64,000 nt of DNA from Pedobacter steynii. Lineage in GTDB: Bacteria > Bacteroidota > Bacteroidia > Sphingobacteriales > Sphingobacteriaceae. The notes below the pieces were generated by a model. It was not told the DNA's origin. It was given only the letters and a program-made list of their open reading frames with translations, and searched no databases. Made by a program: the position numbers and the translations under genes. Below are positions 4,087 to 23,633 of the stretch, piece by piece. Position 1 is the stretch's first letter; every line of letters begins with the position of its first letter. The stretch is from the NCBI RefSeq assembly GCF_900103665.1, contig NZ_FNGY01000001.1:248001-312000 (forward strand), in the 5' to 3' direction.

Positions 4087-4127
4087 TCATTAAATATTTT
4101 CATTTACCAATTTAAACAAATTAGCGC

Positions 4128-6002: not shown

Positions 6003-6117
6003 AATGTATTAATTATTGATATCTAAATATATATATAATTGAATTTAAATGAGCACAAATGGATTTATTGTTTATCTATTGAAAAAAAAATATGTTAAAC
6101 GACAAATTACTGGTTAA

Positions 6118-7480: not shown

Positions 7481-7648
7481 ATGAAACCAAAACAAGAAAC
7501 TAAAGAGATTAAGTTCAAAAAAAGAACCATTGAGTATTTAAACATTCAGGAAATGAAAGCTATCAATGGTGGTGGTGATCCCCAGAATCCTTCAGATACA
7601 ACCAACACCCTTACCATTACCTATACGATTAGTGTACCAAAACCCTAA
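7481..7648 (+). CDS. Cys-free GG-leader peptide, putative RiPP precursor
   Basis: A 55-residue peptide. The leader carries the Bacteroidota class I lanthipeptide-type motif (EIKFKKRTIEYLNIQEMKAI) ending in NGGG, a double-glycine cleavage site suited to the C39 transporter in the same operon. The predicted core is DPQNPSDTTNTLTITYTISV then PKP: seven Thr and two Ser but no Cys. A lanthionine cannot form in this peptide alone, so if it is modified the product would be dehydrated, or dehydrated and reduced, but linear. It is the first gene of the operon, 11 bases before the LuxR regulator. It could also be a signalling peptide. The peptide and its GG leader are clear; substrate status is inferred. 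Confidence 0.75.
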   Translation: MKPKQETKEIKFKKRTIEYLNIQEMKAINGGGDPQNPSDTTNTLTITYTISVPKP

Positions 7649-7659
7649 ACTAAAAGATT

Positions 7660-8361
7660 ATGACCAGGATCATCCCTTTTTCGACAGCCAAAATTGTAGA
7701 TGCTATCTGTATTGCATCCGACAATAATATTCTTTGTGAAGCACTTTTTGACTACCTGCAGCACCGCAACTTTGAAAACATAGGAGTAGCGTGTTCTGAG
7801 AAAGAAACCCTTGATTTTCTTGGTAGGTGTGATTCTTCTATCCTGATCATCAGCGCCAACTTGTTGGATAGCACTGTTTTTCAAACGATAGATGCATTAA
7901 AAAAACTTAAAACGGATGTGAAGGTAATTCTGCTGAGCAATAAAATAGAAGTCCTCCGGTACTTTGAGGAAAGTCAGGATGGCGTGGTGAAGGGGCTGTT
8001 GTCCAATCATGAAAGCATGAGCGATTTGTATTACTGCATCATGGAGGTTTATAACTCCAGGAAGTATAAGTCGGGTCACGTGAAGCGGTTATTGCTGCAG
8101 AGCCAGATCAGCTCCTATGATCTTCCTGCATTAGGTTGCAGCTTTAGCAAGATCAAAGAGTTGACAAAAAGAGAGATGGAAATTTTTCTGGCCATTTCCA
8201 ATACACTATCTACAAGAAGAATTGCTGAGGCCTTGTTTATCAGCCCCGCAACAGTCAATAACCACAAGGCCAGTATTATCGGGAAGCTGAGTTTAAAGGG
8301 CAAAAATCAACTGTTGTCCATAGCGGTTTGGTACAGGACCACACTCACTAACATCGCATGA
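7660..8361 (+). CDS. atypical NarL/LuxR-type regulator lacking the phospho-acceptor Asp
   Basis: A 233-residue protein. The C-terminal LuxR-type helix-turn-helix (about 165-225) is clear: LTKREMEIFLAIS, then TRRIAEALFISPATVNNHKA. The N-terminal ~125 residues fold-match a receiver, but where the phospho-acceptor Asp is expected (D-x-N-L-P-D) it reads S65-A-N-L-L-D, and the acidic pocket near residue 20 is ASDN rather than DD. It is therefore probably a phosphorylation-independent regulator, perhaps responding to a peptide or protein partner. It lies between the precursor (11 bases upstream) and a LanC-like gene it overlaps by 4 bases (ATGA), so it is a pathway regulator by position. Confidence 0.85.
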   Translation: MTRIIPFSTAKIVDAICIASDNNILCEALFDYLQHRNFENIGVACSEKETLDFLGRCDSSILIISANLLDSTVFQTIDALKKLKTDVKVILLSNKIEVLRYFEESQDGVVKGLLSNHESMSDLYYCIMEVYNSRKYKSGHVKRLLLQSQISSYDLPALGCSFSKIKELTKREMEIFLAISNTLSTRRIAEALFISPATVNNHKASIIGKLSLKGKNQLLSIAVWYRTTLTNIA

Positions 8362-9410
8362 TTAAGACCGCATATTTATCCGACATTTTAAGGCTCGAAA
8401 TTGATAAACAATGGAGCCGGTCTGACAGTTCAGAAGAACGTTGTCTGATCCGCTTTCTGCTGGCCCTGATCCAGGAGACGCCTTTCGAGATGGAGGATAG
8501 AAGGCTGTTAAATTCCGGCCGGTTTTATGAAAAATTATCCTTTAGTGAGCAGTTTGTTCATGCCTTAAATATTCTCTTTGTGCTTGACCCGCTCATAGAA
8601 AAAAGAGTTTTTCAATCCGAATATATTATCCCCGAAGTGAATGATTTCATCTTCAGCAGAAGCACCCGGTTGATTGCAGCCCATCGTTACGATTTTAACA
8701 ATGGTGCAACAGGACTGATGTTTTACCTGAAATCCTGCGGAACTGAGCAGGTGGAAGAGATGAAGTTGAATTTTGTCAATGGAATCAGGGCTTATCTCGA
8801 AGGGAAAGCATATCAGGTTCATAGTGCTCCTCAAAACCAGTTGTCCCATATTGCTGATACCCTGTTCGGTTTGTATTTTAACAATGAACATTATGACCAG
8901 CAAAGGGAAGAAAACCTGATTCAGGTCATTGACCTTTGCTTCGATGCCCTGTTTTCCTTCTGGGAAGATGTGAATATTGAAGAATATAAATATCTTTTCT
9001 TTGGGAAGCATCCCGAAAATGCCACACTTACCGATCTTCTGAACTGGAAAGAGGGAGACCTTCAGAAATCTAATATTATTCTCGCTTATTCCATTTTTAA
9101 AAATAACAAAACCTTGTACCGTACCGGTTTGCTCGTTGGCTTGCATACCTTGATTTTACCTTCTCTTTTGAAAGATGATATCGATAGCTATGATTTTCAG
9201 CATGGCGCACTTGGTCTGCTTTATGGCTATAACGCTTTATATGATTTTACCGGCGATGTTAAGTTTCTTGAGGCCTCTAAAGCCTGGCAATCTAAATTAG
9301 AAGTTAACCTTTACAATGCCATCAGTTTGGAGGGGAAATTTGATATTAAAGCAAAAATTGACCTTTTAACCTGTTACGCATTTTTACTCCATAAATCTTC
9401 AGGATCATGA
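8358..9410 (+). CDS. degenerate LanC-like protein (no zinc ligands)
   Basis: A 350-residue protein whose C-terminal part has the alpha-toroid repeats of LanC cyclases. The last repeats are recognisable (FQHGALGLLYGYNALY near 280-295; NNGATGLMFYLK near 115), but the zinc-binding residues are not kept. The WCYG position reads W230-K-E-G, and the CHG position reads Q281-H-G. It overlaps both neighbours by 4 bases (ATGA junctions), so it is translationally coupled to the regulator before it and to the LanC after it. It is probably a non-catalytic partner or scaffold of the downstream cyclase rather than an independent enzyme. The LanC-like assignment rests on these motifs and on position. Confidence 0.65.
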   Translation: MIKTAYLSDILRLEIDKQWSRSDSSEERCLIRFLLALIQETPFEMEDRRLLNSGRFYEKLSFSEQFVHALNILFVLDPLIEKRVFQSEYIIPEVNDFIFSRSTRLIAAHRYDFNNGATGLMFYLKSCGTEQVEEMKLNFVNGIRAYLEGKAYQVHSAPQNQLSHIADTLFGLYFNNEHYDQQREENLIQVIDLCFDALFSFWEDVNIEEYKYLFFGKHPENATLTDLLNWKEGDLQKSNIILAYSIFKNNKTLYRTGLLVGLHTLILPSLLKDDIDSYDFQHGALGLLYGYNALYDFTGDVKFLEASKAWQSKLEVNLYNAISLEGKFDIKAKIDLLTCYAFLLHKSSGS

Positions 9411-10594
9411 TAGATAACGCGACTTTGGAATGGTTTGATGAACAGATCCTGGCCCATAATGATCAGGCTGGTAACTCCCTGTATTCGGGAAAGCTGGGCT
9501 CCATTCTTTATTTTTTTGAAGCGGGCAGGATAAAAGGAGAAATCTTTACCGACCATGCGGAAGCATTATTGGCGGAGTTGTTCGAAGAAATGAACGCTGC
9601 TGAAACGGTTTTTACTGATTTTTCCCTGGCTAACGGATATGTGGGATTGCCTTTGCTTGTTAATTATCTGGTTAAAGAAGGTTTTATTGATTTGGGTGTA
9701 GATCAGGAGTTTTACGATCTTGACCTGTTGATTGCAGAAAAGGCATTCCTGGAATTAACGAAAGACAATACCGATTTCCTTTATGGAACTATTGGCCATC
9801 TGCACTATTTTTCTCAACGCAATTTAAGCCCTTTTATTAAAGATCTGCTTCAACGAATGCTAAAGGAAATCTTTAAAAGGGAAATTATTGATGAGCAAGG
9901 TTTAAGGATCAAAAATGCTTTTTATCATAAAAAAGAAGGCGAGGAAGAATTCATAAACCTGGGGCTTGCCCATGGCAATCTGTCGCTCGGACTAATTTTG
10001 CTGAACCTGATCGACCGGGATCCTGATTTTTCCTGGCTCATTCCAAAGGCAAAACTGATGGCAGATTATTTGATTTGCAAACTTTCCTATAAAACAGGAG
10101 ATGACGAACGGATCCGTTCGCTCTTTCCTTCGATCATCAATAATGAAGGACTTGCCATTTTCAATAACATTCCGGTAGCCTGGTGCTATGGAGACCTTGC
10201 CGTTTGTCTATTCCTCTATGAGTTGGGCAGACTATCGGGAGATCAGTCCTACCATCATAAAGCAGAAGAAATCGGCTTGTTTTCATTTTCCGAAACGGCT
10301 ATTCATCGCGAGGTGGTTGACAATCCTTTTTTCTGTCATGGGACCTCGGGCATTGCTCAGCTTTATAAAAGCCTGTACAACATTTCCGGGAATCCCATAT
10401 ACCTGAAAGCTTATGAATTGTGGATCGGCTGGACCTGGGAAATGATGGAAAGCAATTACCTCCGGGAGCCGCCGGAATTGCTGCCTTCCTCTGAAGTGTT
10501 GTCCGTTATCGAAGGATTCGTTGGCGTTGCACTGGTACTGAACGGTTATCAAACAGAAATTGACCGGTGGTCATCCATTTTCATTTTAAAATAA
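9407..10594 (+). CDS. LanC-family lanthionine cyclase with complete zinc site
   Basis: A 395-residue LanC homologue, near the usual ~400. It keeps the three motifs that hold the catalytic zinc and active-site His in NisC: LGLAHGNLSLG (H189), AWCYGDLAV (C260) and FFCHGTSGIAQLY (C310, H311). LanC enzymes add Cys thiols to dehydroalanine/dehydrobutyrine to make (methyl)lanthionine. Its operon has a precursor without Cys, so its substrate is either another peptide, such as those at 20392-21262, or it acts in another way. It is coupled by a 4-base overlap to the degenerate LanC-like gene and followed 7 bases later by the outer-membrane protein gene. Confidence 0.88.
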   Translation: MIDNATLEWFDEQILAHNDQAGNSLYSGKLGSILYFFEAGRIKGEIFTDHAEALLAELFEEMNAAETVFTDFSLANGYVGLPLLVNYLVKEGFIDLGVDQEFYDLDLLIAEKAFLELTKDNTDFLYGTIGHLHYFSQRNLSPFIKDLLQRMLKEIFKREIIDEQGLRIKNAFYHKKEGEEEFINLGLAHGNLSLGLILLNLIDRDPDFSWLIPKAKLMADYLICKLSYKTGDDERIRSLFPSIINNEGLAIFNNIPVAWCYGDLAVCLFLYELGRLSGDQSYHHKAEEIGLFSFSETAIHREVVDNPFFCHGTSGIAQLYKSLYNISGNPIYLKAYELWIGWTWEMMESNYLREPPELLPSSEVLSVIEGFVGVALVLNGYQTEIDRWSSIFILK

Positions 10595-10601
10595 TCAAAC
10601 T

Positions 10602-12989
10602 ATGAAAACATTATTCCTATTATTCATCGCCTGCATCACATTTACCCGGTTAACGCAGGCACAGGAACGCCCGGAAATTCATATTCAGGGCAGCGTGAAG
10701 GACATGCAAAAGCAGCCTGTCATTTATTCCACATTGTCGTTGATCGACTCCACCGGAAAGGCCATCAATTTTGCCATTTCTGATGAACAGGGTATTTATC
10801 ATTTTCGTGCAAAGCTGAAAGCCGGAATCTATAAAATATCCGCTTCTTCTATGGGATACGCAGCTGGGATCAAAGCATTTGATATTGGTGCAGAGGTCAA
10901 AGAGCTGCAGCTTCCGGAGCTCGTGCTCGTTGCTGATACCAGGACACTTGCTGAAGTCACGATAAAAAGTAAAAAACCACTTATAGAACAGAAAATAGAC
11001 CGGTTGGTGTTCAATGTTTCTCAAAGCCCGATGGCTGCCAGCAGTTCTGCGCTCGACCTGCTGAGGAGGGCTCCTGGCGTGAACGTAGATCAATCCGATG
11101 CGATTAAGCTAAGGGGAAAGAATGTGTTGGTGATGGTCGACAATAAACGGACTTATTTATCCGGCGATCAGGTTGCCCAATACCTTAAAAGCATGCAGGG
11201 CGATCAGATCGAGAAAATGGAAATTATCAGCAATCCTTCTGCAAAATACGATGCCGAAGGCGTGGGAGGGATCATCAACATTGTATCTAAAAAGGATAAA
11301 AAGATGGGGGTCAATGGTGCGGTAACTGCCGGCGGTGGCTATGGTAAGAATGGAAAATACAATGGAAATACCGTACTTAATGTCAGAGAATCCAAATTTG
11401 CAGTTTCCGGAACACTGGGTTTCAACCACGACAAAAGTCCTACCTCAGGAGAACTAAACCGGGTACTCGAAACCACCACTTTTACCCAGAGCAGTTCCAG
11501 TTTGAAAACCCTGAACTCAGGTCTGGGAAAATTGTCTTTTGATTTTTTCCTCGATAAGAAAAATACGTTTGGTCTGGGCTTCATCGCCAATCAGGCAGAA
11601 AATGACCTGTCCAATACCAGTCTTACCTTTCTGAACCAAAATCAGAATAGCAATCAGCTGAACCTGTTCAGTTCGAGCCTGAGCAAATGGAATAGTCAGA
11701 CCTATAGTTTTAACTATAAATCCCAGCTTAAAGAAGAGGAGAGCATTTCAGTCGATGCAGACCTTTCCAGGTACAATAACAATGGAAATATCAATTACAT
11801 CTCCCAGGATATCAACTCGGCGGCACCGGACGATAAAACCTTTAATAACAACCGTATCGGGATTAATATTGCTTCTGTAAAACTGGATTATGAAAAGGCT
11901 TTGTTTAAAAAGCTTGGTCTGGAGGCCGGCCTTAAATATAGTCGGGTGAGCACCAACAACCTGACCAAATTTGACCAGCTGATTGATGGAAACAGGGTAG
12001 ATGATGTGAAAAGGAGTAATGTATTCCGATATGATGAAAATATTTATGCCGGATACCTCAATTTCAACGCTAAGCTGAATGATAAATTGTCACTACAATT
12101 TGGCCTTAGGGGAGAGAAGACGATATCCGACGGAAATTCAAAAACACTGGATTCTGCCTTTAGGCTGAACTACTTTAAATTGTTCCCAAGCCTTTACGGT
12201 ACTTATAGCTTTAGCAAGAACCATCAGGTTGGCGCGTCCTACAGTCGCAGGATTGGAAGGCCGGGGTATAAAGATTTAAATCCTTTCATTTATTATGTAG
12301 ATCAATACACTGCAAATCAGGGGAATCCGTATTTAAGGCCCAGTTTTACCAATTCTTTTGAATTCAACTACACCTTTTTCCAGCAGTATAATATTTCTGT
12401 AGGTTACCAGCAAACGAATGATGAGTTTGAAAAAGTAGCGATACAGGAGGCGGATACCAAACTGGTTAAAGAGATGTATCAGAACTTCGATAAATTTTAT
12501 GGATACTTTATCAGCGCTAATATACCGGTAACGGTAGCCAAGTTCTGGGAAATTAATAATGCAGCTAACCTTTATTACACTGACTATACCCTCGGGCAGA
12601 TCAGGTCCAGAGGTTCAGCCTTGCAGCTGAACAGTACCTCTACTTTCAGTATTCCGGGAAATTATACCGCAGAAATGGATATGATCTATTTTTATAACAA
12701 TGCCTATGGTATTTACCGCGTTAAGCCGAACCTGTATTTCAATATCGGTGTGGCTAAAACCTTGAATGACAAAAGGTCCTCGCTTAAATTGAGTGTTTTT
12801 GATCTTTTTAACAGCAACCAGTCTAATGTGGTGGCAAATCTTGGAACGCTGAATCTGGATTCCAGATACCGCTGGGAGGGGACGCGCGTTAACCTGAGCT
12901 TCAATTATAAGTTTGGAAAAAATACAGTAAAAGGAGCGGCTACAAAGAGGAAATCTTCTGCGGAAGAGCAAAGCCGTATCAAAAATTAA
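10602..12989 (+). CDS. outer-membrane beta-barrel protein with carboxypeptidase-regulatory-like domain and plug
   Basis: A 795-residue protein with signal peptide (residues 1-20, ending TQAQ). It has a carboxypeptidase-D regulatory-like domain (~26-105; HIQGSVKDMQKQPVIYSTLS), a TonB-plug-like domain (~125-225; ALDLLRRAPGVNVDQ, KMEIISNPSAKYDAEGVGG) and a long C-terminal barrel typical of the outer-membrane beta-barrel family (PF14905). These are relatives of TonB-dependent receptors, and substrates are mostly unknown. Encoded inside the RiPP operon, 7 bases after LanC, it may carry the product across the outer membrane, take it up, or be the receptor through which the peptide is sensed. No TolC-like channel gene is present in the window. 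Confidence 0.88.
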   Translation: MKTLFLLFIACITFTRLTQAQERPEIHIQGSVKDMQKQPVIYSTLSLIDSTGKAINFAISDEQGIYHFRAKLKAGIYKISASSMGYAAGIKAFDIGAEVKELQLPELVLVADTRTLAEVTIKSKKPLIEQKIDRLVFNVSQSPMAASSSALDLLRRAPGVNVDQSDAIKLRGKNVLVMVDNKRTYLSGDQVAQYLKSMQGDQIEKMEIISNPSAKYDAEGVGGIINIVSKKDKKMGVNGAVTAGGGYGKNGKYNGNTVLNVRESKFAVSGTLGFNHDKSPTSGELNRVLETTTFTQSSSSLKTLNSGLGKLSFDFFLDKKNTFGLGFIANQAENDLSNTSLTFLNQNQNSNQLNLFSSSLSKWNSQTYSFNYKSQLKEEESISVDADLSRYNNNGNINYISQDINSAAPDDKTFNNNRIGINIASVKLDYEKALFKKLGLEAGLKYSRVSTNNLTKFDQLIDGNRVDDVKRSNVFRYDENIYAGYLNFNAKLNDKLSLQFGLRGEKTISDGNSKTLDSAFRLNYFKLFPSLYGTYSFSKNHQVGASYSRRIGRPGYKDLNPFIYYVDQYTANQGNPYLRPSFTNSFEFNYTFFQQYNISVGYQQTNDEFEKVAIQEADTKLVKEMYQNFDKFYGYFISANIPVTVAKFWEINNAANLYYTDYTLGQIRSRGSALQLNSTSTFSIPGNYTAEMDMIYFYNNAYGIYRVKPNLYFNIGVAKTLNDKRSSLKLSVFDLFNSNQSNVVANLGTLNLDSRYRWEGTRVNLSFNYKFGKNTVKGAATKRKSSAEEQSRIKN

Positions 12990-13024
12990 ATAAGCTTAAG
13001 GGATAACATCTTAAAAAAAAGCGC

Positions 13025-13954
13025 ATGAAAATAGGTATTCTTGAATTTGGAAATATAGAGCAGCGTTCTGGTGCTGAGGTGCTTGAGGCTGTTTTAGAAT
13101 ATGCACAATGTGCAGATGTGAATGGTTTTAGTCGTTTTTGGATTACCGAACACCATCCTTTAAGTATGGGTTGGAATAATCCGGAAATGCTGTTGCCTAC
13201 CCTGGCCTGTTATACGGAAACGATCAAAATCGGTATTGCCGGAATCTTGTCGGCAATACATGCACCCTATCGTGTCGCTTCCAGCTTTAAACTGCTCGGG
13301 ACGATGTTTCCCGGAAGGATAGATCTGGGTTTTGCTAATGGAAAACCAAGTCCCGAAGCTTGCAAAAACATGCTGAATACAGAAAGTCCGGCGCCGGATA
13401 TTTACCATAATTTTCACGGTCACGTCAGGAAAACCCATGCCTTTTTAACAGATGAAGGGCCCGCTGCGATAGCCCCGTATCTGGGCGATCTCCCTGAAAT
13501 GTGGCTGCTCGGCGCGTCTTATCAGCAACTGGAACTGGCAGCGGAACTAGGTGTTGGCTTTTCCAGATCTATTTTTCATACCGTTGAGCGGCCAGAACAT
13601 GAGGCGGAGAAAGTATGGGAACACCGGGCGCAATTTGCCGCAATCCACCAGGCACCGGCTCCGCTCAATATCGCTTTTGCCGGAATCTGCGACAAAGACG
13701 ACCGTAAAGCAAGGAAGAAGTTCTATGAGCTGTACCAGACGGAATATGATCCCAACAGCAATTTTATCGTCGGAAATCCAGCATATTTTAACGACCGCTT
13801 GTCGCAAATGATGGAACAAACCGGGATAGAAGAGTTCATCTTTAAAGACCTTCAGACCAATAACCTCGGCCGGATGGATACCCTGCACCTGCTAAGTAAA
13901 TTGATTTCTAAACCTATTTCAGCGCCTACAGATTATGATAAACTCGAGCTTTAA
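13025..13954 (+). CDS. luciferase-like flavin-dependent oxidoreductase (LLM class)
   Basis: A 309-residue member of the bacterial luciferase-like family, with MKIGILEFGNIEQRSG at the start, RFWITEHHPL, LGTMFPGRIDLGFANGKPSP and a C-terminal helical region. The family uses reduced FMN or F420. In lanthipeptide pathways, members of this superfamily reduce dehydroalanine/dehydrobutyrine to D-Ala/D-Abu (LanJB/LanJC type). That role here is an inference from its place in the operon. Its 3' end overlaps the start of the ABC transporter gene by 20 bases, implying coupled translation. A chromosomal housekeeping role is less likely because it is embedded in the operon. Confidence 0.85.
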   Translation: MKIGILEFGNIEQRSGAEVLEAVLEYAQCADVNGFSRFWITEHHPLSMGWNNPEMLLPTLACYTETIKIGIAGILSAIHAPYRVASSFKLLGTMFPGRIDLGFANGKPSPEACKNMLNTESPAPDIYHNFHGHVRKTHAFLTDEGPAAIAPYLGDLPEMWLLGASYQQLELAAELGVGFSRSIFHTVERPEHEAEKVWEHRAQFAAIHQAPAPLNIAFAGICDKDDRKARKKFYELYQTEYDPNSNFIVGNPAYFNDRLSQMMEQTGIEEFIFKDLQTNNLGRMDTLHLLSKLISKPISAPTDYDKLEL

Positions 13955-16163: not shown

Positions 16164-16165
16164 TT

Positions 16166-16885
16166 ATGCCCGCAAATCAAATCAGTCAAAATGCGACAGA
16201 AAACGAGTTTTCTGAAGAAGTGGATTATATCCTGAGTAGTTTACCCCGTTGGTTAAAAAGGTGGAATTTATACGTTATTCTATCGATGTTTATTGGAGGA
16301 GGTATCATTATTCTGGTGGTCAGTCAACTGGTACGAAAGCCGGTTGTTTACACCAAAATGCAGGTTTATCCTGGCGCACTTAAAGTCAGCGTCGACAAAG
16401 TCTCCGGGATTAAGGAGATCCTGCACAAACAAGGCAGCCTGTTGAAATCGGGGGATACCATTGCCCGGTTGTATGACCTGGAAAACCCACAACTGACCTC
16501 CATATTGAGGTCGCCGGGATCTGGCAGATTAAAGACCTATCACAACTACCAGCCCAATGCCATTGTCAGGCCCGGGCAAGTCATTGCTGTCGTGGAGTCT
16601 ACGCATAAAAAGACCATCCTTGGAGAGTTTAAACTGGATAATGTGCAGGCGAGTCAGTATAAAGAAGGACAAAAGATCCGGATAGAAATTAAAGCCGGAC
16701 AGAAGACCATGACCATTGATGGAATCCTGCAGGAGATCGTTTATCCTGCCGGTGACCAGGGGCAGGCTATATTATACTATGAGATTTCTGATGTGGATCA
16801 ATTGAGTTTTTCCGACCCGACGCAACAGTTGCAAGGCAGGCTCATCGAAAAGAAAATGTCCCTCTCTCTAAACGCTATATTTTAA
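16166..16885 (+). CDS. short HlyD-family membrane fusion protein
   Basis: A 239-residue protein with one transmembrane segment at about 37-58 (YVILSMFIGGGIIILVV), then a biotinyl-lipoyl-like half-motif (VSGIKEILHKQGSLLKSGD), a second lipoyl-like part and a C-terminal beta-barrel region. Standard HlyD adaptors are 350-450 residues with a long coiled-coil hairpin between the lipoyl halves. Here that hairpin is missing, so contact with an outer-membrane channel would have to be made differently. It is the last gene of the operon, 2 bases after the C39 exporter, and is followed by a strong terminator. The adaptor role with the upstream exporter is inferred from this arrangement. Confidence 0.85.
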   Translation: MPANQISQNATENEFSEEVDYILSSLPRWLKRWNLYVILSMFIGGGIIILVVSQLVRKPVVYTKMQVYPGALKVSVDKVSGIKEILHKQGSLLKSGDTIARLYDLENPQLTSILRSPGSGRLKTYHNYQPNAIVRPGQVIAVVESTHKKTILGEFKLDNVQASQYKEGQKIRIEIKAGQKTMTIDGILQEIVYPAGDQGQAILYYEISDVDQLSFSDPTQQLQGRLIEKKMSLSLNAIF

Positions 16886-16910
16886 TCCCTATCTCTACCT
16901 TAATCAAGCG

Positions 16911-16942
16911 AAAAGCCCGGCAGTTGATCTGACCGGGCTTTT
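16911..16942. terminator. hairpin terminator, likely bidirectional
   Basis: A 10-bp GC-rich stem (AAAAGCCCGG with CCGGGCTTTT) and 12-base loop. It closes the plus-strand operon ending at 16885 and lies past the 3' end of the minus-strand LanB gene at 17006. Confidence 0.85.
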
Positions 16943-17005
16943 GTGTATTGTTTTGCAATCTGTTAAGTTGAAAAATGATTCCCCTTTGGGGGAATCTGAT
17001 TTGGG

Positions 17006-20000
17006 TCAGGATTGTTCTGCAACTTTATCCTTGCGGCTAAACTCCTTATTCAGCCCTGATTTTCCATTTTTCATCGCCTTTTGAGTTTTATAATAGGTAT
17101 AAAGAAATTCATAAATGATCATTTCATGGACCCTTTGCTGGAAGGGGAACAACCGGATCATGTGCATATGCGTCATACTGGATAAGATATTCATAAGGGG
17201 GGTTTTTGATTCCTGGTCTTTCATCAGGTGATCCAGTTGTGGAATGATCAGAGATCTGATGTTGTTGGATCTTTCTTCAATGAATTCAAATAATGGCGCA
17301 TATTCATTTTCAACATCCTTTTCCCTATCCATACTCTTATAAATCTCCGTACGGAAATCCCTGTATTTTTTATTGATCTGAAGATTGGTGTTTTTGTCTG
17401 CATTAAATTCCTGCGCAAAGCCCATTTTTATTGGCTCTAAAAAGATTAGTTTTTCATCAGCGTTGAGGCCGAAGTCGTCCAGAAGGGCATCGATAGAACG
17501 CATTCCCCAGAGCCACCTGATCGTTTCCCCCTCCAGGCCTTCTATATTTTCAAGGACCTGTACCACGCTTTCACTGTCGTAATAGAAAATGTCTTCCATC
17601 AGGGAGATGTTTTTTTCTCCGTAACGTTCGATCTCTCTTTCGTAGGTATCAATGATGGTTTTCCAAACCAGTTTTTCCTGAATGAAATAATCCAGGTGTT
17701 TTTTAACGATGAGGATCACTTCTCCTGTACACTCCGGTTTCTTTAACCTGAAGCGGATTCTGAGGTGCTGGTCAGGATCTGCAAATCTTAAAAAGAACCA
17801 TCCATTGATCAGTTCCTTTTCCTTGAGTTCCTGTACCATGGGTTGCAGCTTTTCTGCAATAATTCTTTCGCTGATCTGTGTACCACAATACAGTTTGAAA
17901 TACAGCCATTCGGAACCAACCGTAAATGTCCGTTGAACCGTTCCTTCAGGTTTTGCTGTTTTCAACAGCGTATTACCGGTGGTGGTTGCCTGCTTCCTGC
18001 TTATCGGAAGAATCAGTTGGTTCAGGTATTTATTGCCCTGCTTATCCAGGAAAGGATAATTATGATCTGAAAAAATATGTTCCTTTAAGATGACCGTATC
18101 TCTGTTTTTGATCATGTCAATAAACAGGTTGGCGGAATTTGATTCCTTAAAATCTACCAGTAAAGTATTGTCGCCATCTGCTACAGTAATGAGTTCCGGT
18201 AAATCCAATTTCTGCAGTTGACTTTTGATGGCATTCATATCCTTCGCTGCGGCCAGAAAAGCATTGATTTCTTTTTTATCCAAAGTCCAGGTAGCGAATG
18301 AGATGACCACATTTCCTACCGTAACCCGTGGAAGAAATTTATGTTTTTTTGCCAGGTCAAACCACTGGAAATTGAGTCCTCTTCTGCCATGTTGGTGTTG
18401 CATATCGCATAGAAACTGATAGACTGGTTGTGCGTTATGTGCATAGTTGTGGGCGTTGCTCAATCTTGGCAGGATTTCTTTATTTAGCTTTTTAGAGCGA
18501 AGTACAATTTTGTTTCTGTTTACGGAGATCATAATGTCGTCCAATCCGATGATATGATCCGCATCCACAGAGGCCTTTGCCAGATACGGTATTTCGTATT
18601 TTCTATATTTTGGATGTAATAGAATATTACCGACACGGCTTTCCGGAAGGTGAACGATTTCTGCAAGAATGGCCTGGGTTTCCAGGGCTAACTCCTGATC
18701 TACCAGATTTTGGATCGTAGATTTGATATTTTGATCTGCATGTCCGAAGCGGCCCAGTACATTAATGGCACTGCTTCCCGCAAAGGATTCAATGTGGATC
18801 ATTTCCTCTCCAAGGTAGGAAAGGATTCCTGACATGGTCAGAGGAAGATCGTCATAACTGGCCAGGTTTCCGGAGGCTTTAAGTTCTTCGGTAGAAAGCC
18901 GGATCGTTTTATGGCCAAGGGTCATCGCTTCTTCCAGTTTGGAAAGCAAGAATAATTCCTGTTTATGAACGTCAATACCAAAATAATCCGCATATCTTTT
19001 ATTCAATACCAGTCCATCAAGAAGGGGTGAGAAGCCGTTTTTCTGTTTGACCTGATAGCCGACACCGGATTCTGTATCCAGGGCCTCCAAAATCGGAACT
19101 TCCCTTTCTTCATACCGGGTATAAAAGTTTTTGGCAAATGATTGCAGGTTTTCATTGGAGCGGATTGGGTTCAGTGCGCATAAAATATCCATTGCTTCCA
19201 AAATATCCTCCTGCAGATGTTCACTTAAAATGGTTTTACCATCCGGCCTGAAGGTATCGGTCTGGAACAGGTATTTTTCATTGATGGAGACATTTAAGGA
19301 CCTGGCCATTTCAACGACCTGCTGATAAGCAGCAGGATCATTTTTCCCTTTTTGATCCAGTTCCTGAATGGCTGCTTTAAGCGGGAGCAGCAGGTTCAGC
19401 TCTTTGCTCAGTTCAGCACCTTCATTGCTGATTCTCTGCATGACGTTAATGATCTGCGAAAACACATCATCGCCGGTTACTTCAGGTTCAATCTCACTGA
19501 TCAGCAACTGGGCATCAATACAATTATGGATAAATTCCATAGCCTCCACAGGACTATATCCCATTTCTTCTATAATGGCAGAGAGTTCTGCAGCTGTAGC
19601 CCCTTTTTTACTTTGTTCAAGCATCGCAGCTGCTTCATTGGTTTTCTGAACGGAGCTGATCTGATGCATTCGTTTTCCGTTAACGACCTGATATTCGACA
19701 TACCTCAATTCGTCACCCAAAGGGTAAATAGAAGTATTGGGATAGTATTTTAAATAAGGCTTGATTTCGGGTAGTTTTTCCAGTGTACGTGACAGTTCAC
19801 ACAGATAAAGCATATCCAACCGGGTATGGCGGAGGAGGTTTTCAGATATCTCAATATCGTTTGCCGTTCCCCATTCCGCATGTGAGCAGCTGGCAAATAA
19901 GCCAAAAGGCGTACACCTGGTACTCATGCGGATCAGGTATTTGGTAAGGGAGGTTACGATTTTATCTGATTCCTGTTTATTGGGAACTTCTCCTTTTACC

Positions 20001-20179
20001 CATTTTTCTGCTTCGCGGTAAAGGACAGGGGAGGCGAGAAATACCGCTTCCCTGAATATCTCCAGTTCTTCAAACAATGATTTTACTTCCTCCTGAGTAT
20101 AAGAGGTTTTATAGGGAAGTACCGGTAGCCTGGCGACAAAGTTCCTGTTAAAAGTATAGTTGTTCTTAAAATGTGACAT
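17006..20179 (-). CDS. lanB: full-length class I lanthipeptide dehydratase (LanB)
   Basis: A 1057-residue LanB, the usual full length. The large N-terminal glutamylation domain begins with YTFNRNFVARLPVLPY and contains the family motif RMSTRCTPFGLFASC. The C-terminal elimination domain (SpaB_C/thiopeptide type) has WLYFKLYCG and GWFFLRFADPDQHLRIRF. Class I dehydratases use glutamyl-tRNA to glutamylate Ser/Thr and then eliminate glutamate to give dehydroamino acids. It is the only LanB in the window, so all precursors here probably depend on it. The gene is divergent from the four tandem precursors, with a 212-base promoter region between them. Fusion of both domains in one chain contrasts with the split dehydratases known from some other Bacteroidota clusters. 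Confidence 0.95.
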   Translation of the reverse strand: MSHFKNNYTFNRNFVARLPVLPYKTSYTQEEVKSLFEELEIFREAVFLASPVLYREAEKWVKGEVPNKQESDKIVTSLTKYLIRMSTRCTPFGLFASCSHAEWGTANDIEISENLLRHTRLDMLYLCELSRTLEKLPEIKPYLKYYPNTSIYPLGDELRYVEYQVVNGKRMHQISSVQKTNEAAAMLEQSKKGATAAELSAIIEEMGYSPVEAMEFIHNCIDAQLLISEIEPEVTGDDVFSQIINVMQRISNEGAELSKELNLLLPLKAAIQELDQKGKNDPAAYQQVVEMARSLNVSINEKYLFQTDTFRPDGKTILSEHLQEDILEAMDILCALNPIRSNENLQSFAKNFYTRYEEREVPILEALDTESGVGYQVKQKNGFSPLLDGLVLNKRYADYFGIDVHKQELFLLSKLEEAMTLGHKTIRLSTEELKASGNLASYDDLPLTMSGILSYLGEEMIHIESFAGSSAINVLGRFGHADQNIKSTIQNLVDQELALETQAILAEIVHLPESRVGNILLHPKYRKYEIPYLAKASVDADHIIGLDDIMISVNRNKIVLRSKKLNKEILPRLSNAHNYAHNAQPVYQFLCDMQHQHGRRGLNFQWFDLAKKHKFLPRVTVGNVVISFATWTLDKKEINAFLAAAKDMNAIKSQLQKLDLPELITVADGDNTLLVDFKESNSANLFIDMIKNRDTVILKEHIFSDHNYPFLDKQGNKYLNQLILPISRKQATTTGNTLLKTAKPEGTVQRTFTVGSEWLYFKLYCGTQISERIIAEKLQPMVQELKEKELINGWFFLRFADPDQHLRIRFRLKKPECTGEVILIVKKHLDYFIQEKLVWKTIIDTYEREIERYGEKNISLMEDIFYYDSESVVQVLENIEGLEGETIRWLWGMRSIDALLDDFGLNADEKLIFLEPIKMGFAQEFNADKNTNLQINKKYRDFRTEIYKSMDREKDVENEYAPLFEFIEERSNNIRSLIIPQLDHLMKDQESKTPLMNILSSMTHMHMIRLFPFQQRVHEMIIYEFLYTYYKTQKAMKNGKSGLNKEFSRKDKVAEQS

Positions 20180-20296
20180 GGAATTTAGTTAATAGGATGA
20201 ACGAATGGTTAGGTTTTTTGCTAAGGCAATATAAATAATAACCTATTATATATATATGGTTCAGCATCAACTATTTTCCTGCTAAAAAATGATCAT

Positions 20297-20336
20297 TTAT
20301 CACTATTCCACAGGGGTGATAAAGGATCTAATTTTA
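20297..20336 (+). promoter_or_regulatory. dyad operator candidate and weak -7 box before the precursor array
   Basis: In the divergent region between LanB and the precursors there is a perfect inverted repeat, TTATCAC (20297-20303) and GTGATAA (20316-20322), 12 bases apart. A TAATTTTA element follows at 20329-20336 and resembles the Bacteroidota TAnnTTTG box. No matching TTG element was found at the expected distance, so promoter assignment is weak; the dyad itself is clear. Confidence 0.4.
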
Positions 20337-20391
20337 CCAATGTTAAATCGATAATCAAATAATTAACAAACAACTCATAAACTATTTAATC

Positions 20392-20586
20392 ATGAAAAAG
20401 AAATCATTAACCGACAACAAACTTAGCTTAAACAAAAAAGCAATCTCTAAACTGGATGATGTAAATCTGGAAAACATTCAAGGTGGAATCAGCTTCACCT
20501 GTTGTACAGAAATCATTATCAAACAAGGCCTGGAAGAGGCAGAAGCAGGCGACCTGAGTGTACACTACTCTTGCGGAAAAGCATAA
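20392..20586 (+). CDS. lanA1: class I lanthipeptide precursor A1
   Basis: A 64-residue precursor. The leader has LSLNKKAISKLDDVNLENIQ followed by GG at residues 31-32, the leader/cleavage motif shared by all four copies. The core (residues 33-64) starts ISFTCCTE, has a variable acidic linker and ends with SVHYSC plus GKA. It holds three Cys. Ser/Thr before the Cys pair and the Ser five residues before the last Cys can be dehydrated by LanB and cyclised. First of four tandem copies; the closest to the promoter region and the most divergent in its C-terminal extension. These peptides match the group reported from Pedobacter lusitanus as LanB/LanC products. Confidence 0.93.
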   Translation: MKKKSLTDNKLSLNKKAISKLDDVNLENIQGGISFTCCTEIIIKQGLEEAEAGDLSVHYSCGKA

Positions 20587-20625
20587 CCCAGCCCAAAAAC
20601 CTAACCAAAACTAAAATTAAACAAG

Positions 20626-20817
20626 ATGAAAAAGAAATCATTAACCGACAGCAAACTTAGCCTGAACAAAAAAGCCATCTCTAAACTGGATGATGCAAAC
20701 CTGGAAAATATTCAAGGTGGTATCACTTTCACCTGCTGCACAAAAGTAACCATTGAGCCAAAAGAGAAAGAACAACTCGCAGAGGTTGGCAGTGTACATT
20801 ACTCTTGCGGTTCCTAA
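20626..20817 (+). CDS. lanA2: class I lanthipeptide precursor A2
   Basis: A 63-residue precursor, second in the tandem array, 39 bases after A1. The leader is nearly identical to that of the other copies (LSLNKKAISKLDDANLENIQ then GG). The core begins ITFTCCTK, continues VTIEPKEKEQLAEVG and ends SVHYSCGS. It keeps the Thr-Phe-Thr-Cys-Cys-Thr block and the Ser-Val-His-Tyr-Ser-Cys block, while the linker differs from A1 in charge and sequence. Expected to be dehydrated by the divergent LanB, cyclised by a LanC, cleaved after GG and exported by the C39 transporter. Confidence 0.93.
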   Translation: MKKKSLTDSKLSLNKKAISKLDDANLENIQGGITFTCCTKVTIEPKEKEQLAEVGSVHYSCGS

Positions 20818-20856
20818 CAAAATTAAAAACCTAACCAAAATCAAAAAATAAACATT

Positions 20857-21045
20857 ATGAAAAAGAAATCATTAACCGACAGCAAACTTAGCCTGAACAA
20901 AAAAGCCATCTCTAAACTGGATGATGCAAACCTCGAAAATATTCAAGGTGGTGTTACTTTCACCTGCTGCACAGAGGTAATCATCAAAAAACCATCTCTG
21001 GAAGAAGCGATTGGTGATGTAAGTGTACACTATTCATGTAAATAA
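20857..21045 (+). CDS. lanA3: class I lanthipeptide precursor A3
   Basis: A 62-residue precursor, third in the array, 39 bases after A2. The first 96 bases are almost identical to A2 (recent duplication). The core begins VTFTCCTE, continues VIIKKPSLEEAIGD and ends VSVHYSCK, the shortest C-terminal extension of the four. It keeps all three Cys and the conserved blocks around them. The same enzymes are expected to act as for A1, A2 and A4. Confidence 0.93.
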   Translation: MKKKSLTDSKLSLNKKAISKLDDANLENIQGGVTFTCCTEVIIKKPSLEEAIGDVSVHYSCK

Positions 21046-21070
21046 TTTATAACCTATAAAACTTAACCAG

Positions 21071-21262
21071 ATGAAAAAGAAATCATTAAACGACAGCAAA
21101 CTGTCTTTGAATAAAAAAGCAATCTCAAAATTAGACGACGCTAATTTAGAAAACATCCAGGGTGGAATTACTTTTACCTGCTGCACAAAAGTAACAATCG
21201 AACCTTCTAAACCGAAAGAAGAAGCATTTGAAGACGGAAGTGTACATTATTCTTGCGGATAA
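21071..21262 (+). CDS. lanA4: class I lanthipeptide precursor A4
   Basis: A 63-residue precursor, last of the array, 25 bases after A3. Its leader protein differs from A2 by one residue, yet about 16 of the last 23 leader codons differ synonymously, so this copy is older and its leader is under strong selection. The core begins ITFTCCTK, continues VTIEPSKPKEEAFEDG and ends SVHYSCG. The array is closed 38 bases later by a terminator, before LanC. This will make precursors more abundant than the enzyme. Confidence 0.93.
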   Translation: MKKKSLNDSKLSLNKKAISKLDDANLENIQGGITFTCCTKVTIEPSKPKEEAFEDGSVHYSCG

Positions 21263-21300
21263 AATATTTTAAGATTTGGGGTCTCAGACCACAAATGTTT

Positions 21301-21333
21301 CTCCTCAGGTAGCCATTCCTGAGGAGTTTTTTT
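21301..21333 (+). terminator. terminator between precursor array and LanC
   Basis: Nine-bp stem CTCCTCAGG / CCTGAGGAG with an 8-base loop and seven T residues. It lies between the last precursor and LanC. Partial read-through would give high precursor and low enzyme expression from one promoter. Confidence 0.85.
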
Positions 21334-21353
21334 ATCTTTATTAAACTGAAATC

Positions 21354-22511
21354 ATGGAATATGAGATGATAAAATCATTTGACGATGCACTTCTTTCCGA
21401 TCGGATTGCTGAGTCAGATGTTGAGGATGATTCTTTGCTGGGTGGTGGTATGGGATACAGCTTATACCATGCTGTTCTCGCGGAAACAAGGGATGATGAG
21501 CAGTATCCGGAAAGGGCGTTTCAACAGATTGAAAAGACCTTTCAGCGTTTATCTGCAGGTGCATCTTCACTCGATGGAATAGCGATGGGGACCGGTCTAA
21601 CCGGTTTTGCTGCGGTTATCGCTTACTTTTGCGAGCAGGGATTTTTGAATGAATCGGTGAAAGAAGAGTTGACTGGTATTGAGGAGATCATGTTTAAAGG
21701 CGCGATGTTACAAATCGAAAAAGGGCATACTGACTTTCTGTTTGGAGCATCCGGGCCCTTATCTTATTTTCTTGATGAAAAGCCAAATGAGCAGAATACG
21801 GCCTACATCAACAAGCTAATTGAGGCGATGATCTATCATGGGGGAAAGAATGGCACGCCTGGTTTGTTGCTACCTGAACCAAACCGGTTTTTTTCGCATA
21901 TTAATCTCGGTATTGCACACGGACTCAGCGGGACCGGATTGGTATTGGCTAAAGCTGCTGCCGATCCAAGGGTAGCGCAACAAGGGCCGGTAAGGGAGAT
22001 GTTGCATCATATTCTGGGATACCAGTTGCAGCAAAGGACAACCAGAGGGGACGCAATTTTTCCGATCAAGGTGGATAAACAAAGCGGAAAACCTGAATTC
22101 AGTTCCAATCAGTCCTGGAGCTATGGTGATCTTGGTGTTTTGCTATTCATCTATACGTTATCGAATTTGTTCGATGATGCACAAATCAGAAATACTGCCG
22201 ATCTGCTAACAGAGGAGATCATGGCCAATCGTTTTACACATGAAATGGGCACTGAGAATCCCGGATTGAGACATGGTTTTGCGGGTAAAATCATGCTGAT
22301 CGGGAAGCTGGCAGCCATCAGCGGAAACCAGAAGTATAAGACCTTATATAAAAATCAATATTCATTATTTCAGTCTATGATGAATAATTATGACCTCGAT
22401 CTCGGTGGTTCTTCTCTTAATTTTGAAGGTCTGGTTGGCGCAAGATTGGTGGCTCATAGCCATTTGCTATCTGTTGAACAGCTTGCCTGGAAAAAAATAT
22501 TCTTAATGTAA
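21354..22511 (+). CDS. lanC: LanC-family cyclase lacking two of three zinc ligands
   Basis: A 385-residue LanC homologue next to the precursors. The active-site His motif is kept (GIAHGLSGTG, H189), but the zinc Cys of the usual WCYG is S256 (NQSWSYGDLGV), and the usual CHG reads R306-H307-G (GLRHGFAGK). Only one of the three zinc ligands is therefore present. A LanC without canonical zinc ligands that makes LL-lanthionine has been reported from Pedobacter lusitanus, and this protein fits that type. It follows the precursors and a terminator, and its stop codon abuts the start of the MDR reductase, so the two are coupled. The start at ATG 21354 could also be Met5. Confidence 0.9.
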   Translation: MEYEMIKSFDDALLSDRIAESDVEDDSLLGGGMGYSLYHAVLAETRDDEQYPERAFQQIEKTFQRLSAGASSLDGIAMGTGLTGFAAVIAYFCEQGFLNESVKEELTGIEEIMFKGAMLQIEKGHTDFLFGASGPLSYFLDEKPNEQNTAYINKLIEAMIYHGGKNGTPGLLLPEPNRFFSHINLGIAHGLSGTGLVLAKAAADPRVAQQGPVREMLHHILGYQLQQRTTRGDAIFPIKVDKQSGKPEFSSNQSWSYGDLGVLLFIYTLSNLFDDAQIRNTADLLTEEIMANRFTHEMGTENPGLRHGFAGKIMLIGKLAAISGNQKYKTLYKNQYSLFQSMMNNYDLDLGGSSLNFEGLVGARLVAHSHLLSVEQLAWKKIFLM

Positions 22512-23633
22512 ATGATGAGATCGCTTGTATTATTGTCTGCTCTGGGGACGGAAGAAAAAAACGCTTTCCAGCATTCTGCTGCTATTCACGGCATCCCTTT
22601 TCATTTTGGTCTTCTGGCAACTGAACGCCCGGAATTTCCTTCGGATGCTGATGCTGCCTACCAGGTTTTAGTGAAAAAACGGGCAATCTCGATTAATTTC
22701 AGAGATCTTTCTATTCTCTTTACCCTGAACAACGGCCTGAGCAATAATCCCGGAGGGTATAATTGTTTCGGTTCTGACTTTGTCGGAGAAGTGGTTGCCG
22801 TTGGTAGAAAAGTTAAAAACCTGAAAGTGGGAGATCGCGTTATTCCGAATTGCGATTATGAGATGAAGCCTAAAAGAGGAATTTCTATGCGGGGGATTCC
22901 GTCGAACAGGGCTTCTGCGGCTTATGATTTTTTTGCTGCAGAAAAATTGTTGAAAATCGATGATTCAATTACCGATGAGGTTGCGGCCTGTATGTCTATT
23001 GGCCTGCAGACTTCCTATTCCATGATCCGAAAAGCGAAGATCAGGAAAGGGGAGCGGATTCTGGTGACATCAGGCAGTTCAAATACTTCTTTATTTCTGA
23101 TTGAAGCGCTAAAGGCGAAAGGACATCGCGTTACCGTACTCACCAGTAATCCGGTTACACAGGAGAGGCTAGGTAAAGAGCAGGAGGTCATCTTATATCA
23201 AAATACAAATGATCTGACCGCTCAGCTTGACCTGCATAAAAGTAAGTACTCCTCCGGGTTTGATGTCGTATTTGATCCGTTTAGCGATGTCTTTTTTGAA
23301 AAATTAATTGATTATCTAAATGCTGATGCCAGGTATCTGACCTGCGGACTATATAAACAGAAGCCAGAATTCAAAGATCTGGCGGAAAGTTCAATTGTGA
23401 GCAAGCCACCATTGGGTTATTTGCTGGCACACCTTATCATGAAGAACATCCGTTTGATTGGAAATTGTCTGGGCACTACAAAAGATCTTGTGGAGGCGAT
23501 AGCAGACTATAAAGAAGGTAAAATCAATATCGCGATTGATGCCGTCTTTTCTGAAAGAGAGCTGGGCAGTTTTATTGATAAAGCGTTTACCGATAAACGC
23601 CGGTCAGGAAAAGTGGTGTTGACGTACTATTGA
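22512..23633 (+). CDS. MDR-family (quinone oxidoreductase-like) dehydrogenase, candidate dehydroamino-acid reductase
   Basis: A 373-residue medium-chain dehydrogenase/reductase. The N-terminal GroES-like domain contains SINFRDLSILF and FGSDFVGEVVAVGRKV. The Rossmann part has the nucleotide-binding turn RILVTSGSSNTSLFLIEALK. The catalytic-zinc Cys/His ligands of alcohol dehydrogenases are not evident, which points to the zinc-independent branch. In lanthipeptide clusters, MDR enzymes (LanJA) reduce dehydroalanine/dehydrobutyrine to D-amino acids using NADPH, but those are usually described as zinc-dependent, so the role here is inferred. It starts immediately after the LanC stop codon. Its 3' end overlaps the convergent S41 peptidase gene by 7 bases. 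Confidence 0.8.
   Translation: MMRSLVLLSALGTEEKNAFQHSAAIHGIPFHFGLLATERPEFPSDADAAYQVLVKKRAISINFRDLSILFTLNNGLSNNPGGYNCFGSDFVGEVVAVGRKVKNLKVGDRVIPNCDYEMKPKRGISMRGIPSNRASAAYDFFAAEKLLKIDDSITDEVAACMSIGLQTSYSMIRKAKIRKGERILVTSGSSNTSLFLIEALKAKGHRVTVLTSNPVTQERLGKEQEVILYQNTNDLTAQLDLHKSKYSSGFDVVFDPFSDVFFEKLIDYLNADARYLTCGLYKQKPEFKDLAESSIVSKPPLGYLLAHLIMKNIRLIGNCLGTTKDLVEAIADYKEGKINIAIDAVFSERELGSFIDKAFTDKRRSGKVVLTYY

Follow-up and report, generated by a model that had tools for sequence, protein, structure and literature searches.

Class I lanthipeptides of Bacteroidota are represented by the pinensins and by the PedA15 group of Pedobacter lusitanus, whose clusters combine a LanB dehydratase and a LanC protein with GG-leader precursors and a C39 exporter. 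The locus considered here contains the same four elements and lies in a 64,000-nucleotide stretch of the 8.06-Mb genome of Pedobacter steynii (contig NZ_FNGY01000001.1, our C27, positions 248,001 to 312,000; here, the window). It differs from those groups in having LanC proteins that lack zinc ligands, a Cys-free precursor (A0) with its own promoter, and two kinds of LanJ-like reductase. A preliminary description, made from the DNA alone, proposed a two-armed class I lanthipeptide locus. Each gene that it listed was recovered as an open reading frame (ORF) at its position in the Pedobacter genome, and the class assignment is borne out by a full-length LanB, a LanC with a C-C-H zinc site (LC1), and precursors that match a class I leader model. 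Its inventory was thus right, but it overlooked the zinc-less LC2, the membership of a histidine kinase (HK), a LytTR response regulator, and an S41 peptidase, and a wider set of A0-like ORFs.

Class II bacteriocin, ComDE, and Agr signaling systems share with the locus a small peptide, a C39 exporter, an HK, a LytTR regulator, and direct repeats 21 bp apart, direct repeats being familiar from the plantaricins; here, however, the HK is of the PF06580 type, the host is Gram negative, and the peptide is predicted to be modified by LanB. Another parallel is offered by the two-component lantibiotics with D-amino acids, one of which, bicereucin, reportedly has a ring-free component. Bicereucin, rodencin, and their relatives resemble our locus in having more than one peptide and a LanJ enzyme, according to the accessible part of the source (PMC11519912), whereas they are class II (LanM) systems of Bacillus and ours is of class I, with a Cys-free peptide at an HK-LytTR promoter. 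In Clostridium acetobutylicum, the zinc-less LanM-like protein CA_C0082 is tied to Agr quorum sensing as an effector that lacks the catalytic residues and is not needed for signal production, as stated in the excerpted report (PMC10301443). Lanthionine-type proteins and Agr signaling have therefore met before, there as an effector; a zinc-less protein resembling a lanthipeptide synthetase is common to both cases, whereas the LanB of the window is full length. No description of an arrangement of LanB, HK, LytTR, and a Cys-free peptide was found in the open-access literature, judged by titles and the beginnings of abstracts, nor did the listings contain anything contrary to the earlier remark that the companion arm is undescribed. 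We regard the locus as a class I lanthipeptide system in a novel arrangement. The bolder claim concerns signaling: we propose that the system, laid out as two transcription blocks, carries its own signal peptide, A0, and we assign this reading a probability of roughly 0.45.

Arm 1 is one same-strand run (7481-16885; neighboring genes no more than 35 nt apart, several of them overlapping) encoding A0, a LuxR-type regulator, the LanC homologs LCx and LC1, an outer-membrane beta-barrel protein (OMP), a luciferase-like oxidoreductase (LLM), a C39 exporter, and a HlyD-type adaptor. In arm 2, LanB (17006-20179, reverse strand) is divergent from four Cys-containing precursors (A1 to A4), the LanC homolog LC2, and an MDR reductase (20392-23633). 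Using LCx as the marker of arm 1 and LC2 as that of arm 2, we compared 145 genomes of the genus. Orthologue-grade LCx and LC2 co-occur in three of them, and none of the 145 has just one of the two. The three are the window genome, Pedobacter sp. KBW06 (LCx 96%, LC2 92%), and P. jeongneungensis (LCx 44%, LC2 43%), which all belong to the same genus; weaker matches, at most 32% identical for LCx and 29% for LC2, bring the totals to 9 and 21 genomes, respectively. Relatives of LC1 above 50% are confined to the same three of 399 family genomes. When an 84,980-species collection was scanned with a pattern from the LanB alignment, 30 loci were found; the only close ones are those of KBW06 (97%) and P. 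jeongneungensis (62%), and Olivibacter sitiensis (43%) comes next. Because two of the three marker genomes are near relatives, only about two independent observations are available.

In P. jeongneungensis, a single contig carries both arms, with about 48 kb between them (C1, 81.1-90.5 and 138.8-147.9 kb). Arm 1 there comprises HlyD, C39, LLM, OMP, LC1, LCx, LuxR, and a Cys-free A0, with no LanB in the 20 kb fetched around it, and arm 2 comprises LanB, precursors, LC2, and a reductase, with no exporter in its own 20 kb; likewise, the window has no LanB in arm 1 and neither an exporter nor a zinc-competent LanC in arm 2. The S41 peptidase, LytTR, and HK genes are all beside arm 2 in P. jeongneungensis and at opposite ends of the locus in the window. 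Since the arms are retained together, genome by genome, while their shared partners relocate, it is hard to maintain that they are unrelated neighbors, and the shared partners extend the system to about 5271-24616. Two independent systems brought together by chance or by recent juxtaposition would account for the 48-kb separation and for the occurrence of the arms in only three genomes, two of them close, and these genomes have further LanB and LanC genes at other places that could still serve. However, neither arm seems complete alone, no genome has a single marker, and the shared partners accompany different arms in the two arrangements, so that we consider independence very improbable and a single system highly probable. 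The proposal of one system in the preliminary description is thus supported by co-conservation of the two marker genes and tempered by the lack of linkage in P. jeongneungensis and the closeness of two of the relatives. Given those other LanB and LanC genes, we infer, rather than observe, that the arms depend on each other, and their co-regulation is likewise a prediction from sequence.

By following zinc-less LanCs and the promoter, we traced A0-like ORFs in other genomes. The same set recurs in at least four genera: a Cys-free, Thr-rich ORF of 40 to 56 aa with a basic leader, divergent from an HK gene, with LytTR and LanB genes nearby. It is present in the window, KBW06, Olivibacter (L108), genomes G621 (L194), G419 (L195), G014 (L244), and G167 (L196), a second locus of the window's own genome (C18, L050), and three further loci (L053-L055). 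The last three, together with L052, which also carries an A0-like ORF and in which the HK is cut off, are OMP-LanB-LanC-LLM-C39 clusters. If the LanB loci whose HK is in view are counted once each, 10 of 14 have an A0-like ORF divergent from that HK, L053-L055 being near-duplicates. Outside A0's own lineage, these candidates were identified by sequence pattern and position, and, except for A0 and the L052-L055 set, they are single sequences. In L108, L194, L195, and L244, the HK, LytTR, LanB, and peptide genes are contiguous; LanB is full length with both domains, and LytTR is at most 65 bp from LanB, overlapping its end in L244. Neither a C39 exporter, a Cys precursor, nor a LanJ was seen in these four loci by comparison with the window proteins and a look at small ORFs. 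LanC is zinc-less in L108, L194, and L195, and L244 showed none over its 20 kb. A search of the Olivibacter genome with the leader model NF038153 gave no match.

Among 51 distinct fetched LanB loci, 10 have a LytTR gene within 6 kb (L045 was scored as lacking one because its LytTR falls beyond the fetched stretch). An ORF scan placed 8 of 12 Cys-free candidates near an HK start, compared with 4.5% of intergenic bases within 600 bp of such a start (P = 7e-09), an enrichment that is overstated because the scan criteria were chosen with most of the examples already in view and L054 and L055 are near-duplicates. The scan yielded one really new find (L196) and, by our reading of its rules, missed the G621 peptide, which is masked by an overlapping longer ORF, and the L053 peptide, which falls under the Ser/Thr threshold. 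Four candidates have no HK in view: L052, where it is cut off, and L105, L106, and L123, which a signaling role does not explain.

Some genes of these and other LanB loci are recorded here in their own right. The L123 candidate (Flavobacterium sp. Root186, 14957-15121, forward strand) is a GG-leader peptide without Cys that is encoded near LanB and whose leader is class-I-like. L050 (C18:249001-269000) has a second Cys-free Thr-rich ORF (7249-7419, reverse strand) beside HK, LytTR, and a 934-aa LanB; the three LanC matches of this genome are all on other contigs. L049, from the same genome (C28:193001-213000), combines LanB and HK-LytTR with a 340-aa gene lacking a Pfam match at E 0.001, and has neither a LanC match on the contig nor a clear precursor close to the HK. 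L051 (C22:628001-648000), which encodes LanB in split form, a LanC-domain protein of 674 aa, and a C39 exporter, with a Cys-containing GG peptide nearby, is a separate pinensin-like cluster. In L052-L055, from four genomes of the genus, a strongly conserved Cys-free GGG-leader peptide of 72 aa (core QSDDDIRF...VSQEDSLL) follows the A0-like ORF directly and on the same strand, in clusters with three to six Cys precursors. L195 (16822-18045) encodes a protein of the arginase family (PF00491) that has an additional region at its N terminus and is possibly a peptide arginase, beside LanB, HK, and LytTR.

A0 differs from its KBW06 counterpart at 5 of 168 nt, all silent, and the P. jeongneungensis orthologue, 48% identical, retains the leader and the T-x-T-x-T core. 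Its leader belongs to the same family as those of A1-A4: the latter, with three Cys each, score 37.5 to 40.4 bits in a whole-genome search with NF038153, a class I lanthipeptide leader model, and A0 scores 22.2 bits against a cut-off of 22; in a second scan, A1 scores 37.1 bits and A0 22.3. In the whole genome, this model has six matches, and the five above the cut-off are A0-A4 only. A0 is probably a LanB substrate, as its leader suggests. If A0-like ORFs were instead unmodified regulatory or chance peptides, this would fit the facts that the leader model recognizes A0 in the window and KBW06 only and gave no hit for that of P. jeongneungensis, that six other A0-like peptides are without a match in the single library against which each was scanned (four in NCBIfam, two in Pfam), and that most A0-like ORFs are single sequences. 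We find this improbable in view of the silent substitutions in A0, of a basic leader that by eye resembles the Bacteroidetes class I motif LxLxKx5L given in the accessible part of a survey (PMC7268733), and of L244, where LanB is the sole modifying enzyme recognized among the window homologs looked for.

The A0 core, GDPQNPSDTTNTLTITYTISVPKP, contains a strict T-x-T-x-T-x-T-x-T-x-S series, i.e., six alternating hydroxyl residues, which is reached by 132 of 100,000 core shuffles; P. jeongneungensis A0 has four (2,012 of 100,000). This series and the LanJC-like gene within the A0 operon raise the chief rival to a signaling role, namely, that A0 is the ring-free second component of a two-peptide lantibiotic, in which LanB would convert Thr to dehydrobutyrine (Dhb) and LLM would reduce it to D-aminobutyrate (D-Abu), giving a partly alternating D,L peptide that acts on membranes with the A1-A4 products. 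LanJ enzymes are indeed present in bicereucin and rodencin, as the excerpted source has it (PMC11519912). However, the alternation of Thr and hydrophobic residues equally fits a plain amphipathic strand, A0-like ORFs are located at HK promoters, and Thr-rich cores also occur in L108, L194, L195, and L244, in which no LanJ or Cys precursor was seen. A stricter version, a gramicidin-like, strictly alternating D,L A0, was demoted since Thr-rich cores recur in loci without a LanJ in view. Overall, a two-peptide lantibiotic appears unlikely, and we favor a signal that switches the cluster on, at odds just short of even, because the constant feature of the A0-like peptides across genera is their place at the HK, including in loci with little else that is lanthipeptide-like. 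These odds are based on position beside HK and LanB and not on counts of repeat sites.

Among the three LanCs of the window, LC1 alone retains the full C-C-H zinc triad. Both LC1 (7.2e-32) and LC2 (4.7e-28) match the LanC-like Pfam family, in which LCx gives a weak match below the cut-off (0.0068); LCx is recognized by hhalign against a 16-sequence LanC profile (98.8%, E 5e-17). LC2 of all three species has Ser and Arg at the positions of NisC Cys284 and Cys330, but the third ligand His is retained, as is an aligned Asp/His pair. In LCx, both Cys are lost; the ligand positions read K, Q, H in the window, where, as in KBW06, the His persists, and R, Y, S in P. jeongneungensis, which lacks it. 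The triad is present in 57 of 71 distinct LanC-like ORFs of the fetched loci (near-duplicates included); the 14 without it comprise LC2 and LCx (three of each), an LCx-like protein of Olivibacter, and seven others. In Olivibacter sitiensis (L108, 15437-17516), LCx-like and LC1-like genes, both without the zinc triad, are adjacent beside HK-LytTR-LanB. An AlphaFold model of LCx from a three-row alignment was rejected as fold evidence: with a pLDDT of 63.6, it has no Foldseek match under E 0.001, and its comparison with NisC (Z 9.8, root-mean-square deviation 8.7, 264 aligned) is rivaled by unrelated helical proteins at like Z, among which MadC also appears. The kinship of LCx to LanC therefore rests on profile comparison, not on fold.

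The zinc-competent LC1 beside the Cys-free peptide and the zinc-less LC2 beside the Cys peptides suggest action in trans. Class III LanKC has a LanC-fold cyclase that works without zinc, as the accessible part of PMC10604976 reports, and LC2 may thus be active. LC2 would then be a metal-independent class I cyclase for A1-A4, with another role for LC1; the adjacency of LC2 to the Cys precursors, its retained Asp/His pair and third ligand His, and a Ser at the C284 position as in the LanKC enzyme ThurKC (PMC10604976, as excerpted) agree with this. On the other hand, LC2 is a stand-alone LanC that has Arg and His where ThurKC has Phe and Asp, the Asp/His pair is absent from ThurKC, and the site of LC1 is complete while A0 has no Cys to cyclize. 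A cyclase role for LC2 is therefore rated as unlikely, and ring formation by LC1 in trans is preferred.

The A0 promoter contains a direct repeat phased by 21 bp, GTTGG-N16-GTTGGTGTAATA, a candidate site for the LytTR regulator. The pattern was written from the window, KBW06, and G621 sites and replaced an earlier one with fixed inner bases, which missed the window's own site genome-wide while a looser form found it. It is exact in the window, KBW06, G621, and G014, with one mismatch in Olivibacter, three in P. jeongneungensis, and four in G419, and lies 54 to 65 nt before the start in six of the seven A0 and A0-like genes that have it (108 nt in G621). Shuffled loci gave 14 to 18 hits at up to four mismatches in 20 loci, so that the P. 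jeongneungensis and G419 sites lean on position as much as on sequence. In 395 class genomes and 145 congeners, the exact sites number seven and are all intergenic, while 31 of 39 one-mismatch sites examined (41 listed) are inside ORFs of at least 120 aa. The new exact site on C15 of G014 led to L244, a previously unrecognized LanB/HK/LytTR locus of another genus with a Cys-free TDTTTIVTYT peptide; the remaining three new sites precede a GG-leader peptide, a 3,223-aa ORF, and a 356-aa ORF. The 3,223-aa ORF (L245, G014:C56, 10250-19921) has no Pfam match at E 0.001 in its first 917 aa. Six sites within one mismatch exist in G014, one of which is about 470 bp upstream of a peptide/ATP-grasp/C39 cluster (TIGR04192, above cut-off), and the G419 locus adjoins a TIGR04192-like gene that is below cut-off. 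The repeat thus hints, on thin grounds, at a regulon of ribosomally synthesized and post-translationally modified peptide (RiPP) genes.

In the LanB/A1 divergent promoter, the motif ATAATTTTACC-NN-TGTNAAANCGATAA (20328-20354) may be a second-tier regulatory site; within four mismatches, it is found only at orthologous LanB/A1 promoters (fetched loci longer than 9 kb, 1.32 Mb), and the window has it once within five. A second repeat (CTCATTCGT/CTCATTGGT, 21 bp apart) 5' of the L052-L055 A0-like ORF was discarded as weak, being visible only in an alignment of close relatives and among repeats of similar score.

From these elements, we propose the following model. LanB would dehydrate Ser and Thr in A1-A4 and A0, and LC1 would form the thioether rings of A1-A4 in trans, with LC2 and LCx as substrate-binding or metal-independent helpers; without Cys, A0 would form no ring. 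The LanJA-like and LanJC-like reductases would convert some leftover dehydroalanine and Dhb to D-Ala and D-Abu, after which the C39 exporter with HlyD would remove the GG leaders and export both kinds of peptide. Mature A0 would be sensed by the divergently encoded HK; LytTR would bind the 21-bp-phased repeat and turn on the A0-LuxR-LCx-LC1-OMP-LLM-C39-HlyD operon, and LuxR would then activate LanB and A1-A4-LC2-LanJA. A generalization to Bacteroidota, which we advance tentatively and hold to be rather more likely wrong than right, is a peptide signaling type with a LanB-made, ring-free dehydroamino-acid pheromone (in some loci perhaps a D-amino-acid one) from a Cys-free Thr-rich precursor, sensed by HK-LytTR, partly via GTTGG-N16-GTTGGTGTAATA, and activating lanthipeptide and perhaps other RiPP operons; it would stand alone in some loci with a zinc-less LanC or none and no exporter in view.

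Several observations weigh against A0 as a signal. (i) There is no clear A0-like ORF in L049, L057, and L130 despite an HK and none in L047 (P. jeongneungensis arm 2), and P. jeongneungensis A0 is about 57 kb from the HK. (ii) The four contiguous loci showed no exporter, and the criteria of the ORF scan were fixed after several examples were known. (iii) The repeat does not appear at the A0-like ORFs of L050, L052-L055, and L196 with four mismatches allowed, and in the window genome it exists within one mismatch only at A0. Up to one mismatch, 32 sites stand against about 48 for the reversed control in the class genomes and 17 against about 16 in the congeners; in the absence of an excess, only exact sites carry weight. 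Three of the seven exact sites defined the pattern; G014 contributes three and G221 one of the four that were new, among which only one precedes an A0-like gene. (iv) AgrC/ComD-type HKs have HATPase_c or HATPase_c_5 as the sole conserved domain, according to the excerpted source (PMC8895600), whereas our HK, with hydrophobic segments at 28-47, 57-75, and 79-114, matches PF06580 His_kinase alone (E 0.001), so that the locus is not classed as an Agr/ComDE member.

LanB has the glutamylation and elimination domains (PF04738, E 1.8e-137; PF14028, 2.1e-65) and matches PDB entries 9g04 (1.7e-56) and 5ehk, a lantibiotic dehydratase (5.7e-31). The locus encodes LanB and LanC but no LanM synthetase; the matches of LC1 and LC2 to the LanM model are confined to its C-terminal region and score well under the cut-off. 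In a tblastn search of a plasmid collection, the MDR protein (22512-23633) is 36.6% identical over 92% (3e-38) to the product of the MDR gene ending the lanM cluster of pMRC01, which we take to be ltnJ; its best PDB carbonyl reductase match is 5e-14, obtained with a different program and library. Being closer in sequence to the pMRC01 gene than to generic alcohol dehydrogenases, the MDR enzyme is LanJA-like; the LanJA of lacticin 3147, LtnJ, is found with LanM and not with class I LanB/LanC. In the LLM tree, in which long branches were flagged, 11 rows separate from the other 19 at 97/94; 10 of the 11, the window's included, are labeled by a LanB-, LanC-, or C39-like neighbor, and G250 has LanB on the same contig, but three labeled rows fall on the other side. 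By this grouping with LLMs of LanB/LanC loci, the LLM is LanJC-like, a name applied to such luciferase-like enzymes in the part of the 2020 survey available (PMC7268733). Birimositide- and lexapeptide-type LanJC enzymes are likewise luciferase-like and encoded in lanthipeptide clusters, as far as the excerpts of PMC7268733 and PMC10373908 show, whereas the LLM of the window is in a class I context of Bacteroidota.

Table 1. Features of the locus (positions in the window)
Feature	Position	Strand	Evidence or relationship
LytTR response regulator	5271..6002	-	PF00072 + PF04397; 67% orthologue adjoining P. jeongneungensis arm 2
Histidine kinase, PF06580 type, divergent from A0	6118..7209	-	55% orthologue in P. 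jeongneungensis arm 2
21-bp-phased direct repeat GTTGG-N16-GTTGGTGTAATA, candidate LytTR site	7394..7426	+	54 nt 5' of A0
A0, Cys-free Thr-rich GG-leader precursor, core GDPQNPSDTTNTLTITYTISVPKP	7481..7648	+	NF038153 22.2-22.3 bits
LuxR/GerE-type regulator	7660..8361	+	PF00196 7e-14; weak receiver PF00072 below cut-off; 69% orthologue in P. jeongneungensis
LCx, LanC homologue, both zinc Cys lost	8358..9410	+	hhalign 98.8%; 44% orthologue in P. jeongneungensis
LC1, LanC with intact zinc triad C260, C310, H311, plus H189	9407..10594	+	PF05147 7.2e-32
Outer-membrane beta-barrel, OMP_b-brl_3 with plug	10602..12989	+	PF14905 3.2e-95; 68% orthologue in P. jeongneungensis
Luciferase-like oxidoreductase (LLM), LanJC-like	13025..13954	+	PF00296; tree group 97/94
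C39 peptidase-ABC exporter	13935..16163	+	PF03412, PF00664, PF00005; 82% orthologue in P. jeongneungensis
HlyD-type periplasmic adaptor	16166..16885	+	PF13437 2.7e-08
Full-length LanB dehydratase	17006..20179	-	PF04738 + PF14028; 62% orthologue in P. jeongneungensis
Conserved motif ATAATTTTACC-NN-TGTNAAANCGATAA, LanB/A1 divergent promoter	20328..20354	+	Kept at orthologous promoters
A1, Cys-containing lanthipeptide precursor	20392..20586	+	NF038153 37.1 bits
A2, Cys-containing precursor	20626..20817	+	NF038153 above cut-off
A3, Cys-containing precursor	20857..21045	+	NF038153 above cut-off
A4, Cys-containing precursor	21071..21262	+	NF038153 above cut-off
LC2, LanC with Ser, Arg replacing two zinc Cys	21354..22511	+	LanC-like Pfam match 4.7e-28; NisC match 4.2e-07
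MDR dehydrogenase (zinc-type), LanJA-like	22512..23633	+	tblastn 36.6%, 3e-38 to pMRC01 MDR gene
S41 peptidase, arm 2 partner	23627..24616	-	PF03572; 55%, equivalent position in P. jeongneungensis arm 2

Upstream of the locus (625-5189), the window encodes a large protein of 1153 aa that resembles a beta-propeller (Lactonase-type match) and an orphan of 353 aa, neither of which has a match adjoining either arm in P. jeongneungensis (L046, L047).

The three LanC homologs LC1, LC2, and LCx offer a natural three-way comparison of the role of zinc-less LanCs. D-residues were known only from class II lanthipeptides in the 2020 survey, as far as its accessible part states (PMC7268733); the finding of both LanJA-like and LanJC-like reductases in one class I locus broadens where such residues should be looked for. 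Should A0 prove to be a signal made by LanB, Bacteroidota would have a pheromone of ribosomal origin that is modified by an enzyme. This would explain LanB loci in which no Cys precursor or zinc-competent LanC is seen and would provide a simple means to switch on silent lanthipeptide clusters.

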